From assembly GCF_028714775.1 (NCBI RefSeq), contig NZ_JAQTLS010000030.1, positions 1 through 32,224 of the forward strand: DNA of 32,224 bases. Reading direction: 5' to 3'. Position 1 is the stretch's first letter. The number at the start of each line of letters is the position of its first letter. The translations under genes and the position numbers were made by a program. The notes under the pieces are model-generated. The model was given only the letters and a program-made list of their open reading frames with translations. It did no database searches and was not told where the DNA came from. The DNA comes from Thiothrix sp. GTDB lineage: Bacteria; Pseudomonadota; Gammaproteobacteria; Thiotrichales; Thiotrichaceae. Positions 10,565 to 14,157 of the stretch are shown here, one piece after another.

Positions 10565-10727
10565 CCAGCAACAGGAGACGCAGGTAGTGCCAGTAACAAA
10601 CAAAACGGCGGTTGCCTTCGGGTTCCTGTTCCTGTTCATGAATCGCTTTTCGTGGTGGTTTGGTACGGTGTTCGGTGCTATCTCTGCAATTAAGGTATCA
10701 GGGTTACTTCCGGGGTTATTCCAATGA
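10557..10727 (+). CDS. Small hydrophobic protein between portal and minor head genes
   Basis: A 56-residue protein; ATG 10557 lies within the portal end and the stop at 10727 overlaps the next start. After a polar N-terminus (NNQQQETQVVPVTNK) it is mostly hydrophobic (TAVAFGFLFLFMNRFSWWFGTVFGAISAIKVSG), consistent with one or two membrane helices. No family recognised. A membrane protein is unusual in this place. Overlaps on both sides support translation. Confidence 0.55.
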   Translation: MNNQQQETQVVPVTNKTAVAFGFLFLFMNRFSWWFGTVFGAISAIKVSGLLPGLFQ

Positions 10728-12541
10728 GCGTTGCTGATTTGCTGGATAGCCTTCCACGGCGCAAAGTAAAGCTGCCGGAAGACTACTATGACACGCGAGC
10801 AACGGCGGCGCGTGACTTGGCCTTTACGGTGTCTGGCGTGCACCAGCTTGATGCTGTACAGGCCGTGCTTGATAGTCTTGATGCCAATATCAAGGCCGGT
10901 GGCTCGTTCAAGGACTGGAAAAAGCAGATTTCCGAAACTGGCGAAATGGCAACTTTCCCTGAACACCGCAAAGAACTGGTATTCAGGAACCACGCGCAAA
11001 CGGCATACGCCCACGGAAAGTGCAAAAACTTTGAAGACCGCAAGGATACCCGGCCTTACCTGATGTATTCGGCTGTTGGAGACAGCAGGACACGACCAGC
11101 ACACCAGCGTCTTGACGGGGTTATTCGTCCGGTTGGTGATGCGTTCTGGCGCGAGAATATGCCACCTAACGGGCACAATTGCATTCTCCCCGGAAATAAA
11201 ATACAGGGAGAATTTGAGATAGGTCTAAAATCCTTCTATTCTGGAAAAGCCGTAAAGATTTTTGCTTCTAGCGGAAGAACGCTTACCGTCACGGCGAATC
11301 ACCCCGTATTGACCGGGCGCGGATGGATTGCGGCGAAGGAGGTCAAGGCAGGCGACAAGCTTCTCAGTTACAGCGGGATAGTTGATTCCTGCACGCTCCC
11401 CGTCGTAAATAATGATAACCCTCCATCCTTTGTTGAGGATGTTTTCAAGTCTCTCAGTCGTTATGCTTTTGGAACTTGCGATAGGTCTTCTTTCGAGTTC
11501 CACGGCGACGCGAATCTCAGGAAAGGCGAAATCTACGTTGCTGGATTCAATAGCGTACTGATGGATGGGTTTAAGCCCTGCAATAGTCATGGCATTAAGC
11601 AACTGGTATTCGTGCTTACTAATACTATGAGCATTATTCGTTCCAGAATAATTCATAACAGTATTAGCCTTTCTTTTCTTAACGTCCGCGCTATTTATCG
11701 GAAGTTGCAATCCGTTTTTGGAAAGTATCCGCTTAACCTCGCCAGTGCTACATCCACATTTGTTGGCAATGCTTGTGCTTCCTCCGTTGGATGGATTTGC
11801 GTACATGCCGATAATAACAGACTCCCTTTCAGAGTCCCGCGCATCTGCCGCCTTCCATGCAGCCGAACACTGCCGTTCAACGCCGCCTTCTCTCTTCTTA
11901 ATTTCATACCACTTAATGGTTTCAGACTCGCTTTGAGTCCTTCTTTTAACTCCATTCGCTCTTATTATTCTGGCTATGGTACTTCTGCTCTTTCCTGTTC
12001 TTTTGGCTATAGAGTTCTCGCTTTCGCCAGAAATATAGGCATCAGCTATGGAAATATCATCGCTAGAGTTTGCTGCTTTTTTAGGGAGGATTCTGTTTCT
12101 AGTGGAAACGCCAGCATCCCTAAGGAGTCGCCTGAACAAACAATCACTGATTCCATTCTCGCTAAGCAGTTTTCCGACGGGGTAGCCGGAAACGTATTTA
12201 TTGATTATGCTATCGGAGTTATTGACTTCTCTTATAGTGGGCATGTTTATGATTTCCAAAGTAAAAACGGCATTCTGTGCGTAAACGGAATTATAACACA
12301 TAATTGCAGGTGTAGTGTAATTAGCCTTACAGAAAAGCAGGCAAAAGCGCGTGGAGGAGTGACAGAAAACCCTGAAAACGGGGCTGATGCAGGGTGGACT
12401 TATTCGCCATGTGCGGACAGAACCAAGGGCGAAGAGCAAGCAATCCAGCGCAAGGCCGAAACCTATCACCAGAAGTTGCTCAAATTTTTCGATGGACTGC
12501 TTGCCGGGCTTGCTGCTGTTCGTGCTATGTTCGGACAGTAA
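10724..12541 (+). CDS. Minor head protein (Mu gpF / SPP1 gp7 type) interrupted by an intein
   Basis: A 605-residue continuous frame. Residues 1-152 and 528-605 are the mature protein: helix-rich start, FRNHAQTAYAHGKCKNFED, YLMYSAVGDSRTRPAHQRLDG, then WRENMPPNGHN joined to CRCSVISLTEKQA. PPNGHNCRCSV is the hallmark of phage Mu gpF-like head morphogenesis proteins, which sit at the portal and help capsid assembly or DNA injection. Between Asn152 and Cys528 lies a 375-residue intein. After splicing the product would be 230 residues, close to the minimal size of this family. The insertion sits exactly in the most conserved motif, as inteins usually do. Confidence 0.9.
   Translation: MSVADLLDSLPRRKVKLPEDYYDTRATAARDLAFTVSGVHQLDAVQAVLDSLDANIKAGGSFKDWKKQISETGEMATFPEHRKELVFRNHAQTAYAHGKCKNFEDRKDTRPYLMYSAVGDSRTRPAHQRLDGVIRPVGDAFWRENMPPNGHNCILPGNKIQGEFEIGLKSFYSGKAVKIFASSGRTLTVTANHPVLTGRGWIAAKEVKAGDKLLSYSGIVDSCTLPVVNNDNPPSFVEDVFKSLSRYAFGTCDRSSFEFHGDANLRKGEIYVAGFNSVLMDGFKPCNSHGIKQLVFVLTNTMSIIRSRIIHNSISLSFLNVRAIYRKLQSVFGKYPLNLASATSTFVGNACASSVGWICVHADNNRLPFRVPRICRLPCSRTLPFNAAFSLLNFIPLNGFRLALSPSFNSIRSYYSGYGTSALSCSFGYRVLAFARNIGISYGNIIARVCCFFREDSVSSGNASIPKESPEQTITDSILAKQFSDGVAGNVFIDYAIGVIDFSYSGHVYDFQSKNGILCVNGIITHNCRCSVISLTEKQAKARGGVTENPENGADAGWTYSPCADRTKGEEQAIQRKAETYHQKLLKFFDGLLAGLAAVRAMFGQ
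11180..12304 (+). other. Intein coding segment in the minor head protein
   Basis: Residues 153-527. It begins with Cys153 (CILPGNKIQGEFEIG, block A). Block B is LTVTANHPVLTGRGWIAA with the TxxH pair T190 and H193, followed by KAGDKLL. It ends with block F/G (GHVYDFQSKNG, then CVNGIITHN) and the C-terminal His526-Asn527, followed by Cys528 as the +1 nucleophile. All residues needed for Cys-type protein splicing are present. Between about residues 226 and 504 the plus-strand translation has no endonuclease motif and looks like antisense-derived filler rich in Ser, Phe, Arg and Cys. That stretch is the complement of a minus-strand nuclease gene. Confidence 0.93.
11225..12244 (-). CDS. Homing endonuclease-like protein (three HTH units plus Vsr-like nuclease), antisense within the intein
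   Basis: A 339-residue protein; ATG 12244 follows GGAAATCATAAAC. The frame is open further upstream to 12544, but that part is antisense of the extein and not protein-like. Three similar HTH units: about 12-47 (IINKYVSGYPVGKLLSENG, then FRRLLRDAGV), 64-101 (IADAYISGESENSIAKRTG, then STIARIIRANGVKRR) and 143-181 (GSTSIANKCGCSTGEVKRIL). The C-terminal domain (208-285) resembles the Vsr/EDxHD branch of PD-(D/E)XK nucleases: SKHEYQLLNAM with E212, NVDFAFPEIRVAVELE with D238, E249 and E251, then ERLENILNKGWRVIIIYD. The start codon is the complement of intein codon His507 and the stop of Leu168, so the gene lies wholly inside the intein. It probably cuts intein-free alleles to spread the element. 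Activity is not provable from sequence. Confidence 0.82.
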   Translation of the reverse strand: MPTIREVNNSDSIINKYVSGYPVGKLLSENGISDCLFRRLLRDAGVSTRNRILPKKAANSSDDISIADAYISGESENSIAKRTGKSRSTIARIIRANGVKRRTQSESETIKWYEIKKREGGVERQCSAAWKAADARDSERESVIIGMYANPSNGGSTSIANKCGCSTGEVKRILSKNGLQLPINSADVKKRKANTVMNYSGTNNAHSISKHEYQLLNAMTIAGLKPIHQYAIESSNVDFAFPEIRVAVELERRPIASSKSITTERLENILNKGWRVIIIYDGERAGINYPAVTEKLVACLDLLRRNPSAPGQYGVIRRDGKRSSARSKNLYGFSRIEGF

Positions 12542-12574: not shown

Positions 12575-12796
12575 TCACCCTCCAACAATGACGCTTGTTT
12601 TCTTTCCCGAATAAACGGTAACGTTCCTTGTCACTCCGTTAATAACAATCCTGTAGTTGCCCGGTTCGGCACTGAATGCCCCACTATGTTCGGTTTTGCA
12701 CTGGACATTGCCGGATTCACTATACAGGCACACTTCGACTGGCTTGAGCGCAGGGCTTGAACCAATAACCAGCGCATAAAGGATTACCCCATGCAT
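12575..12796 (-). CDS. Small exported protein, Cys-containing
   Basis: A 73-residue protein. ATG 12796 overlaps the upstream stop as TAATG; a GTG at 12805 would add three residues. The N-terminus MHGVILYALVIGSSPA is a short signal-like hydrophobic segment. The rest looks like a small beta-sandwich (VEVCLYSESGNVQCKTE, then AEPGNYRIVINGVTRNVTVYSGKK) with two Cys that could form a disulfide. It is the last gene of the leftward operon. No family recognised. Confidence 0.55.
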   Translation of the reverse strand: MHGVILYALVIGSSPALKPVEVCLYSESGNVQCKTEHSGAFSAEPGNYRIVINGVTRNVTVYSGKKTSVIVGG

Positions 12797-13098
12797 TATT
12801 TGCACTCCGTAGGGTTGCAGTGAACAACCTCTTTAATGCCATTCACGCCCAAGGTAAACACGTACTCACCTTGGCGGCGCGAATCGACGGCACAGGTAAA
12901 ATCGGCGTTTTTATCGTAACCGCGCTTTACAAGCTCTTGACGAAGGTCGAGTTCATAAACGCCACATTTCCCGGTAATATCTTCTGCATGTGCCTTTGAT
13001 GCTACGGCAAAGTAAGCAACCAGCAGAGCGACGATAATAATAGTGTAACCAGCCTTGCGATTTGCTGATTTTTCAATTTTATTTGCTTGATTTTCCAT
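12796..13098 (-). CDS. Exported or membrane-anchored small protein
   Basis: A 100-residue protein; ATG 13098 sits behind the shared leader CAAAGAGGTATCTAAA, which fixes the start against an open extension to 13152. Residues 1-18 are basic and polar, 19-41 are hydrophobic (IIIVALLVAYFAVASKAHA) ending in a signal-peptidase-like AHA, and the mature part EDITGKCGVYELDLRQEL... carries three Cys. It is co-transcribed with the gene at 12575. Function unknown. Confidence 0.6.
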   Translation of the reverse strand: MENQANKIEKSANRKAGYTIIIVALLVAYFAVASKAHAEDITGKCGVYELDLRQELVKRGYDKNADFTCAVDSRRQGEYVFTLGVNGIKEVVHCNPTECK

Positions 13099-13146
13099 TT
13101 TAGATACCTCTTTGATTAGTGATTTAGTTAGTGGGTTATTCCCGTT

Positions 13147-13170
13147 CCGCACACTTCCTAAAATGTGCGG
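13147..13170. other. Intergenic hairpin
   Basis: CCGCACA (13147-13153) pairs with TGTGCGG (13164-13170) over a 10-base loop. It lies between two leftward genes and lacks a T-run on either strand, so it is more likely an mRNA stability or processing element than a terminator. Confidence 0.45.
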
Positions 13171-13181
13171 TTAGGATTAAC

Positions 13182-13358
13182 TCAAATCTTTGTTGCTTTT
13201 CCGTTTTCTACTTTCAATTTCAAAAGCATTTCAAAAATATCTGTTTTCTTGTCTGTAACAAAATCCTGACAAGTATTATCAGGTTCGCAGTGCACCTCAT
13301 GCTTGTAATTTGCAGCAGGGTACAGCGTAAGCGCGTATGCAAGAGCTATTGCGTTCAT
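13182..13358 (-). CDS. Short exported-type protein
   Basis: A 58-residue protein. ATG 13358 is chosen because GAGG overlaps the upstream TGA (TGAGGCAACAATG), implying coupling; the frame is open to 13433 but inside the previous gene. MNAIALAYALTLYPAANYKHE has a weak hydrophobic leader, followed by EVHCEPDNTCQDF with two Cys seven residues apart and a Lys-rich end. It may be a secreted, disulfide-bonded peptide. No family recognised. Confidence 0.45.
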   Translation of the reverse strand: MNAIALAYALTLYPAANYKHEVHCEPDNTCQDFVTDKKTDIFEMLLKLKVENGKATKI

Positions 13359-13365
13359 TGTTGCC

Positions 13366-13662
13366 TCAGATCGGGTAGCAGACAGGACGACCAACAACGA
13401 ATTCACAGGTAATGAAAGCCTTATCTCCGTCATTCATTGTTACCTTGCAAGTTGTTTTATCTTCGCTACCCTCAAGGCGTGATGCGCTGCATGAAACTTC
13501 CTTGATGTTCTTGCCGCCGTAGAATTCTGCTGCAATTGCAAGAGCGCGTTCTTTGATCTTTTCGGCGCTGCTTTCTGCATGTGCTGTCGAAGAGCCAAAA
13601 GCTACGGCGAAGATTGCGATTGCAGCAGCAATGGCAAGTGCGTAATGAGCTAGTTTATTCAT
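13366..13662 (-). CDS. Secreted small protein with Sec signal peptide
   Basis: A 98-residue protein starting at ATG 13662 behind CAAAGAGGTATCAAGCC. A clear signal peptide (MNKLAHYALAIAAAIAIFA, then VAFGSSTAHA) ends at AHA-ESS. The mature part (about 69 residues) contains three or more Cys (VSCSAS, TTCKV, ITCEF, PVCYP), suggesting a disulfide-stabilised periplasmic protein. Its leader and signal cleavage region closely resemble those of the next upstream gene, so the two may be distant duplicates. Function unknown. Confidence 0.65.
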   Translation of the reverse strand: MNKLAHYALAIAAAIAIFAVAFGSSTAHAESSAEKIKERALAIAAEFYGGKNIKEVSCSASRLEGSEDKTTCKVTMNDGDKAFITCEFVVGRPVCYPI

Positions 13663-13718
13663 GGCTTGATACCTCTTTGTAACCACGGTGTTTTAAACCG
13701 TGGCTGTTTTGTTGTTGG

Positions 13719-14000
13719 TTATTGGTTGCACTGGCCTTTTACGGTAACACGGCTTTTGTAAGTAGCCATGCTATTAGGAGCTTCATATGAAACATCAGTT
13801 TCAACATAACCGGGTTTTGATGGAGTTGTATTACTAATTTCAACTATTACGATTTTTGAAGTAGGAACACGGTGCTTTGCCGCAAGCGCTGTTTTAATGC
13901 TGTTACCGTCTGCCTTGCATTCTCCGGCATGTGCTGAACCAGTGCTTGCCAATACTGCAAGGCCGAAAAGAGCGAATAAGAAAGTTGCTGTAAATTTCAT
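13719..14000 (-). CDS. Secreted small protein with Sec signal peptide
   Basis: A 93-residue protein; ATG 14000 follows the leader CAAAGAGGTATCAAGCC, identical to that of the gene at 13662. Signal peptide MKFTATFLFALFGLAVLAST ends at AHA-GEC. The mature part has two Cys at its ends (GECKADG and KGQCNQ), fitting one disulfide that ties the chain together, with beta-like strands between (SKIVIVEISNT, YVETDVSYEA, YKSRVTVKG). It is the first gene after promoter P3. Such secreted cargo genes in prophages often alter host surface or fitness (morons), which is inference here. Confidence 0.65.
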   Translation of the reverse strand: MKFTATFLFALFGLAVLASTGSAHAGECKADGNSIKTALAAKHRVPTSKIVIVEISNTTPSKPGYVETDVSYEAPNSMATYKSRVTVKGQCNQ

Positions 14001-14069
14001 GGCTTGATACCTCTTTGTGAACGTTAGTTGTTTTGGCTTCGTGCCGTGTTTGTCGTCCTGATGTGGTGT

Positions 14070-14111
14070 ATTATTCACGAAAGCCGATAACGTGTAAATC
14101 TTTGTTTTACA
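14070..14111 (-). promoter_or_regulatory. Promoter P3 (leftward) with palindromic operator
   Basis: Read on the minus strand, TGTAAAACAAAGATTTACA (14111-14093) is identical to the P1 operator. -35 TTTACA (14098-14093), 17 bp, -10 AATAAT (14075-14070), then ACAC as at P1. It drives the exported-protein operon. Confidence 0.75.
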
Positions 14112-14128
14112 CAACCAGACAAAAGGTA

Positions 14129-14157
14129 TTATCAAGAAATGCGCACAATGCTATAAT
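14129..14157 (+). promoter_or_regulatory. Rightward promoter, divergent from P3
   Basis: TTATCA (14129-14134), 17 bp, TATAAT (14152-14157), placed 26 bases before ATG 14184. The promoter is divergent from P3, with 17 bp between its -35 box and the P3 operator, so one bound regulator could affect both. Confidence 0.65.

Follow-up and report, generated by a model that had tools for sequence, protein, structure and literature searches.

In a 32,224-nucleotide stretch of DNA from Thiothrix sp. (contig NZ_JAQTLS010000030.1; the whole stretch is called the window below), the gene for a Mu F-like (MuF) minor head protein contains an intein on the plus strand, and the minus strand of the same DNA carries a putative homing endonuclease gene. 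Our analysis indicates that this locus is very probably a mobile intein in which the homing endonuclease is encoded separately, by an antisense gene that has its own expression signals within the splicing domain. The nested layout recurs throughout a family of loci from many phages that are only distantly related, selection acts on both strands, and the antisense start and ribosome-site signals are conserved.

In the proposed mechanism, the plus strand would yield the head protein precursor, from which the intein would splice itself out, leaving a head protein of 230 residues. Intein residues 1-64, 81-100 and 335-375, and less surely 100-122, would form the splicing fold, and the approximately 200 residues in the middle would mostly just mirror the antisense gene. 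The minus strand, presumably transcribed from within the intein, would encode a nuclease in which helix-turn-helix (HTH) units for DNA binding are combined with a catalytic domain like that of Vsr and I-Bth0305I. Block F, read as its reverse complement, supplies the predicted start codon and ribosome-binding site of this gene, and candidate promoter elements lie just upstream, in many loci opposite block G. The nuclease would cut intein-less head genes at the ..N/CRC.. site (the slash marks the junction), and repair would copy the intein and the nuclease gene together.

Intein and antisense nuclease gene in the window

The initial annotation had described an intein that keeps the host frame open, and our results agree with it. 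The plus-strand open reading frame (ORF) is free of stops and the host gene is not split in two (Table 1). The intein extends from C153 to N527 of the precursor, followed by C528, with the TxxH of block B at intein T38/H41 and the terminal His526-Asn527 at H374-N375. The Phage_Mu_F family of Pfam matched precursor residues 47-153, the ..N/CRC.. motif is present at the junction, and genes for terminase, portal and major head proteins lie nearby, forming a phage head module. The intein splicing model matched precursor residues 172-527 with an E-value of 2e-4 and 21.7 bits, below the cut-off of 35.8. We aligned 57 inteins, namely that of the window and 56 of 68 candidates, after removal of six with a wrong Cys and six near duplicates; C1, T38, H41, G48 and N375 were invariant, the rows having been picked partly by C1 and N. 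With this alignment, AlphaFold2 gave high confidence at residues 1-64, about 81-100 and 341-375, where the block means of the predicted local distance difference test (pLDDT) exceeded 90 in most splicing parts. Confidence was middling at residues 101-120 (block means 60 and 75), and pLDDT fell below 50 at 69-77, 126-168, 183-215 and 217-323. Inteins ranked first in a Foldseek search with this model (E 0.004 upward; target template-modelling (TM) scores 0.28-0.39 in the first ten). No endonuclease family of Pfam matched the plus-strand intein, and the intein chain contains no in-frame endonuclease domain.

The 339-residue minus-strand protein lies wholly inside the intein, as the initial annotation had stated, and its assignment as a Vsr-like nuclease was supported by profile and structure searches; an alternative upstream TTG start would lengthen it to 439 residues. 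Pfam searches returned HTH_58 (E 4e-7) and DUF559 (E 0.002, 18.4 bits, cut-off 20.6). The AlphaFold2 model had a mean pLDDT of 83.8, with two helix pairs and an alpha/beta nuclease core at 210-305 modelled confidently. Two of the three HTH units originally proposed, at residues 10-43 and 61-96, correspond to these helix pairs; the third, at residues 159-176, was modelled with low confidence. Foldseek placed I-Bth0305I and Vsr in the first four positions (E 0.013-0.042, prob 0.98-1.00, target TM 0.53-0.56), including 3r3p (E 0.013, prob 0.99) and 1vsr (E 0.023, prob 1.00); no match in the search fell below E 0.001. A profile of 111 family members, comprising the window protein and 110 of 115 non-redundant proteins (from 139), matched the endonuclease-like protein 3hrl (9e-8), the CRISPR-repeat-binding HTH structure 2lvs (4e-7), I-Bth0305I 3r3p (2e-5) and, weakly, Vsr 1cw0 (0.4). 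The window nuclease alone as query matched neither 3hrl nor 3r3p. REase_MTES_1575 was recognized by Pfam in 67 of the 111 members and DUF559 in 18. D238 and E249 were invariant in all 111 and E212 was present in at least 90%, and the family consensus includes GGxWH. These models and profiles predict that the minus-strand product has a Vsr/I-Bth0305I-like catalytic fold. The initial annotation would have been undermined by a minus-strand protein without nuclease matches and an intein centre conserved only as plus-strand protein; nuclease matches were found, and in relatives the centre is conserved mainly as minus-strand protein.

Table 1. Features of the intein-containing head gene and the antisense nuclease gene (positions in the window)
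Feature	Position	Strand	Remarks
Mu F-like minor head protein precursor with intein, 605 aa	10724..12541	+	PF04233 E 6e-19; PHROG minor head E 1e-45
N-extein, 152 aa, C-terminal ..PPNGHN	10724..11179	+	
Intein, 375 aa, C1 to H374-N375	11180..12304	+	splicing parts modelled with high confidence; top structural matches are inteins
Antisense homing endonuclease gene (putative), 339 aa, ATG to TAG	11225..12244	-	codon-on-codon register with intein
Intein block B TVTANHPVLTGRGW, T38/H41	11285..11326	+	opposite C-terminal tail of nuclease gene; T38, H41 invariant in 57 aligned inteins
Vsr/DUF559-like nuclease core, nuclease residues 210-305; E212, D238, E249	11330..11617	-	
Dual-coded motif, plus FHGD (intein 107-110) / minus VAVE (nuclease 246-249)	11498..11509		
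Possible HTH unit 3, nuclease residues 159-176, low confidence	11717..11770	-	block pLDDT 46-69; mostly gapped in 16 relatives
HTH unit 2, nuclease residues 61-96	11957..12064	-	HTH_58 match and AlphaFold2 model
HTH unit 1, nuclease residues 10-43	12116..12217	-	AlphaFold2 model
Intein block F GHVYDFQ	12239..12259	+	His355 codon CAT is antisense ATG
Start codon ATG of antisense gene	12242..12244	-	
Shine-Dalgarno-like stretch TTTGGAAA, weak in window	12253..12260	-	
Intein block G NGIITHN, C-terminal splice junction	12284..12304	+	
Extended -10 promoter-like element TGTTATAAT	12290..12298	-	antisense of block G codons I-I-T
C-extein, 78 aa, starts CRC	12305..12541	+	

Nested loci and selection on both strands

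Homologues with the same nested layout, as called for by the initial annotation, were found in number: in 188 of 194 loci an antisense nuclease is nested in codon register with the opposite frame, which runs without a stop along the full length of the nuclease domain. Of these loci, 189 were found with the nuclease and five with the intein; 178 came from scans of viral contigs with three nuclease sub-alignments (with 80 of 120 kept from the second) and the remaining L001-L016 from eleven nuclease and five intein matches. The set is redundant and comprises 156 distinct nuclease DNAs, the window counted. The proposal that a nuclease gene had invaded this intein in reverse orientation holds for the antisense nesting with an open host frame, but the window belongs to a widespread family and does not represent one invasion. 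Among 189 rows (the 188 loci and the window), a strict N/C.C junction was present in 153, a strict N-terminal Cys in 114 and both in 93. The six loci that are not nested are two free-standing nucleases (L131 and L226), one HNH protein (L143; PF01844 E 1e-5) and L151-L153, which share the HTH stretch only. This stretch is thus common to the nuclease family, an HNH protein and three loci with no recognised nuclease domain, and the HTH module may have been traded between endonuclease types.

Searches by tblastn gave 33 matching phage records for the window nuclease, 107 for the window intein, and 92 and 121 for two distant relatives. Over the nuclease, the nine nuclease-match and five intein-match regions examined were annotated with the opposite-strand gene only, as head gene, minor capsid or hypothetical protein. 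The antisense ORF is annotated as a hypothetical protein, whole in phage PK1 and partially in vB_StyS-sam. Annotation is one-sided in either direction: in Salmonella phage PK1 (L297, 1108-1917) it shows the antisense ORF, and in Escherichia phage Snoke (L294) the intein and no antisense gene. Ten host-gene pieces were compared with Pfam, and five were head proteins from three families (MuF, minor capsid 2 and VG15) and one was a dCMP deaminase; the pieces from L163, L169, L176 and L190 had no Pfam match. The deaminase is the annotated head morphogenesis protein of virus Rctr197k (L015, 2165-3517; PF00383 E 5e-11), and its antisense-nuclease intein sits, as judged by eye, at the PCxxC zinc motif. 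Three free-standing nuclease genes lie convergently and directly behind a complete MuF gene, in Acinetobacter phage BUCT629 (L295, 1330-2223), L226 (2950-3633) and L131 (2306-3226), where the MuF gene is fused to portal. This arrangement may represent an earlier state.

The viral scan with the window intein as query found no relative. Scans with the nuclease profile (63 genomes, and 398 genomes with at most six candidates scored each) returned mostly DUF559- or HTH-type stretches, the clear long matches being the window and one further genome (G281). With the intein profile, the window was the sole full-length match in 369 genomes (at most six candidates scored each), and therefore no nuclease-less close relative of the window intein was found among them. 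A second nuclease-profile match, covering the nuclease part alone (E 2.5e-6), is present elsewhere in the same Thiothrix genome (contig C31, 27174-27473).

Selection was analysed in 32 non-overlapping pairs (66-96% identity) chosen from 214 comparable pairs. Differences per site at plus-strand codon positions 1, 2 and 3 were 0.295, 0.224 and 0.545 in the N-extein, 0.415, 0.173 and 0.291 opposite the HTH part, and 0.314, 0.107 and 0.241 opposite the nuclease core. The minus-strand conditional ratio was 0.99 [0.92-1.06] in the N-extein and 1.02 [0.93-1.12] in the 58 codons that lead up to the nuclease stop, both outside the gene; inside it, the ratio was 0.59 in the tail, 0.41 in the core and 0.48 in the HTH part. 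Values of 0.71 [0.54-0.91] and 0.92 [0.81-1.09] were obtained for block F/G and the C-extein. The plus-strand ratio was 0.45 in the N-extein, 0.39 in the 58 codons before the nuclease stop, 0.45 opposite the nuclease tail (where block B lies), 0.56 opposite the core, 0.82 opposite the HTH part, 0.27 in block F/G and 0.56 in the C-extein. These results show that purifying selection on the minus strand falls on the nuclease gene, and that on the plus strand it falls on the extein, the splicing blocks and the end of the overlap where the nuclease domain lies. In 20-codon windows, the plus-strand ratio was 0.40-0.46 over the first 60 codons of the overlap, 0.51-0.74 up to codon 139 and 0.73-1.08 thereafter, suggesting that about 60, perhaps 120, codons are dual-coding and that the remaining intein centre is mainly shadow. 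Part of the overlap, in which block B lies opposite the nuclease tail and FHGD opposite VAVE, looks truly dual-coding.

The antisense frame might instead be a by-product of codon bias or residue complementarity, the intein being the sole gene. The ORF lists show that long antisense frames are general in the high-GC loci, and some plus-strand motifs are mirrored in the minus frame. However, the in-register antisense run without stops is 438 codons here, and the longest in seven other genes of the window are 53-102 codons; opposite the minus-strand gene lie 26 Leu and 44 Ser codons, and given how the genes of this prophage use codons, the probability that none of these creates an antisense stop is 3e-8. 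Furthermore, minus-strand constraint is confined to the nuclease, the minus-strand proteins form a family with nuclease profile and fold matches, and homologues of the nuclease exist free-standing. We regard this explanation as extremely improbable. A chance antisense frame was likewise rejected, given the same probability, the recurrent nesting, the selection on the minus strand and the stops in the plus frame of free-standing homologues.

The plus-strand centre could also be a relic, in which case the intein would not splice, the head gene would be broken in carriers and the frame would merely not be closed yet. The plus-strand ratio of 0.82 opposite the HTH part and the stretches of the intein model with pLDDT below 50 are in keeping with such decay. 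In contrast, the splicing residues T38, H41, G48, C1 and N375 are invariant in the 57 inteins (with the selection of rows noted above), the plus-strand ratio is 0.27-0.45 in the splicing blocks and N-extein, and the plus frame is unbroken in 188 loci, as compared with 2, 3 and 12 stops in the three free-standing homologues. A relic is therefore very unlikely, and a functional intein carrying an antisense nuclease gene is the interpretation that we favor.

Candidate expression signals in the splicing blocks and a motif shared by both strands

Block F, typically G-H-V-Y-N/D-L-Q/E, reads in reverse as TTGGAGGTTATAAACATG or a variant of it. A start codon lies opposite the first residue of block F in 118 of the 146 distinct loci with a readable block F (99 ATG, 15 GTG and 4 TTG). 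The His codon is CAT in 99 of 114 loci, compared with a background of 210/522 in the N-extein, and the Leu of block F is CTC in 93 of 108, where 22.1 (standard deviation 3.8) are expected. At least four Shine-Dalgarno bases at the proper spacing were found in 100 of the 118 loci with a block F start and in 5 of the 28 without one. In L203 and L219, Thr-Ser replaces the Leu-Gln of block F, yet GGAGGT persists on the antisense strand, as though preserving the ribosome site had counted for more than preserving the residues.

Promoter-like sites were compared with synonymous shuffles in 81 loci. Sites scoring at least 9/12 were found in 33 loci (10.4 expected), at least 11/12 in 9 (0.8) and 12/12 in 5 (0.1), and a perfect TGnTATAAT (8/8) in 13 (1.0). 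In 26 of the 33 loci scoring at least 9/12, the distance from the end of the -10 element to the start is 26-28 or 45 bases. When N-extein segments served as a rougher reference, 30 of 70 loci reached this threshold, with 1.9 expected. The window itself has a perfect TGTTATAAT 45 bases before the ATG, with a poor -35. Thus, the antisense start and ribosome-site signals are conserved, and promoter-like sites are enriched family-wide. Since the start, the ribosome site and the promoter-like elements lie in the splicing blocks, the insert could bring its own expression signals wherever it is inserted.

The FHGD/VAVE motif is encoded by the same twelve bases on both strands. On the nuclease side, Ala247 is GCC in 105 of 106 (background 534/1326, 40%), Val248 is GTG in 94 of 94 (background 83/766, 11%), and Val246 is GTC in 64 of 64 (background 353/766), position 246 being GTC or ATC in 106 of 107 with Val or Ile; Glu249 is GAA in 92 and GAG in 19. 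The locked VAVE codons cause the plus strand to read F/L-H-G-D, of which Gly109 and Asp110 are present in at least 90% of the 57 inteins. Variation within the motif is mostly silent or conservative on each strand, and the codons of D238, N236 and Y235 show no comparable lock. Two free-standing members, L131 and L226, have VAIE as the motif and LDRD or LDGD on the plus strand, with 3 and 2 stops in the plus frame; the free-standing BUCT629 gene has 12 plus-frame stops and no match to the motif pattern. FHGD as a mere shadow of the nuclease was considered, and is made unlikely by the locked codons together with the two free-standing homologues that lack FHGD.

The twelve nearly invariant bases might also be expected if the stretch were a binding or regulatory site in the DNA, conserved as such and not for two proteins. 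However, the variation is of the coding type, with GTC/ATC keeping the plus-strand Asp, GTG/ATG the plus-strand His and GAA/GAG the minus-strand Glu. Moreover, two of the free-standing homologues have VAIE with plus-strand LDRD or LDGD and the third does not match the pattern, although these cases are few and LDGD retains Gly-Asp. We assign little probability to a DNA site and prefer conservation of the motif for two proteins.

Mobility and relation to known systems

Empty sites provide evidence on mobility. With the joined exteins of a Pseudomonas aeruginosa locus as query, among the best 40 of 334 records, 23 P. aeruginosa phage records (some of them two records of one phage) were contiguous at 97.6-100% identity, and 14 stopped at the junction with an N-extein that was 100% identical. 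The DNA of the P. aeruginosa phages JBD44 and CF23a joins exactly at AAC/TGC, with an insert of 807 bases; flank identity in 100-base bins was 87-100%, with 100% and 98% immediately beside the junction. The intein-bearing Snoke has an intein-less relative, Bas73, whose extein is contiguous at 89.9% identity. For the window, two empty relatives only were found in its genus, at 40-45% identity. In Mallos, Vibrio 2.117.O, Osiris and Halfdan, the joined-extein match ends near the junction, and no nuclease of this family was detected there. Distances of the nuclease, the splicing part and the extein correlate about equally (0.74-0.75), so that the correlations do not separate intein mobility from vertical descent.

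These correlations, together with the absence of GGxWH in the window copy, would also suit a nuclease with a role other than homing, for example the exclusion of rival phages, that had been kept in the intein by chance. However, inserts occupy junctions of one kind in MuF, minor capsid 2 and VG15 head proteins as well as, in one case, a dCMP deaminase, the insert is present or absent among near-identical phages, and three free-standing members lie directly behind an uninterrupted MuF gene. Such a role is improbable in our assessment, and homing better accounts for the family.

Several points weigh against the interpretation of the locus as a homing intein with an independently expressed antisense endonuclease. 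We infer splicing, antisense transcription and translation, cleavage specificity and homing from the DNA sequence. Foldseek E-values were above 0.001 for both the intein and the nuclease models. The window copy has Arg at nuclease position 253, a candidate column for the His of the EDxHD motif, where 71 of 111 members have His. The GGxWH of the family consensus is absent from it, which makes its own activity uncertain; this copy may be weak. It also has a short Shine-Dalgarno-like stretch only, with Phe where most have Leu. Within the family, 28 of 146 loci have no start in block F and block F is unreadable in 10 of 156; 37 of the 118 loci with a start were left out of the promoter test, with too little upstream sequence, and a general promoter scan of the window gave no excess (3 found, 3.4 expected). 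Because both translations entered the scoring of the codon alignments, both frames could have been favored, although the same scoring gave a minus-strand ratio of about 1 in the exteins. Plus-strand constraint opposite the HTH part is weak, and its ratio of 0.82 comes without a minus-only control region. Fisher p values are overstated because the relatives are not independent.

Intein endonucleases are taken to be in-frame domains of the LAGLIDADG or HNH types, and for this reason a whole family of nucleases has largely escaped notice within genes labelled as head proteins. Known EDxHD (Vsr-like) homing endonucleases, such as I-Bth0305I, have their genes in introns or, as free-standing genes, between the halves of split inteins. 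A preprint by Gosselin, Arsenault and Gogarten, judging from its title, deals with actinobacteriophage inteins of "non-canonical architecture" and may cover part of the present family, for example the MuF inteins of Gordonia phages. Like a canonical LAGLIDADG or HNH intein, the present element is a predicted self-splicing insert at a conserved site of a conserved gene, with a splicing fold and an endonuclease predicted to spread it; unlike in the canonical case, the endonuclease is a separate antisense gene with its own start, outside the intein chain. It shares the catalytic fold, the conserved E, D and E and, in the family consensus, GGxWH with I-Bth0305I and the EDxHD endonucleases, but is nested antisense in a continuous intein. 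In contrast to split inteins and fractured genes, the host gene is one unbroken 605-residue plus-strand frame.

The initial annotation knew of no described example of this arrangement. We likewise found no description of an antisense endonuclease gene inside an intein in the literature searched, which did not reach bioRxiv 10.1101/2025.01.02.630785. The closest case is the ShiLan element, a methylase insertion carrying an out-of-frame HNH endonuclease gene on the same strand, without a splicing domain and with a ribosome-binding site that its authors could not detect (PMC11855218). Both elements hide a homing endonuclease in another frame of an insertion that keeps the host gene open; the present one differs in its opposite strand, its Vsr-like nuclease and its location inside an intein with a splicing domain and conserved start signals. 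As far as tested, the function is of a known kind, that of a homing intein, and the architecture is new. We consider it likely that these loci represent a new class of inteins that are bidirectional, occurring in phages whose hosts, according to the records, belong to at least two bacterial phyla. In this class, one strand would carry the splicing element and the other, codon against codon, the homing endonuclease; the splicing blocks, read as their reverse complement, would contain its promoter, ribosome site and start, and VAVE and FHGD would share twelve locked bases.

If this is true, the intein and its nuclease would be among the best supported long-lived sense-antisense gene pairs with both products conserved. 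The many lineages of the conserved pair make the long-term stability of natural sense-antisense coding testable, as well as the sharing of a conserved motif by two proteins on opposite strands and the use of a splicing domain as a portable promoter and ribosome-binding site. The family also offers new site-specific nucleases and inteins as tools, and it warns that genes of mobile elements are missed when the annotated strand alone is read.

Behind the head gene, small ORFs are clustered on the minus strand at 12575-14135 of the window; the three that were checked had no PHROG match, and several have, by eye, signal-peptide-like starts.

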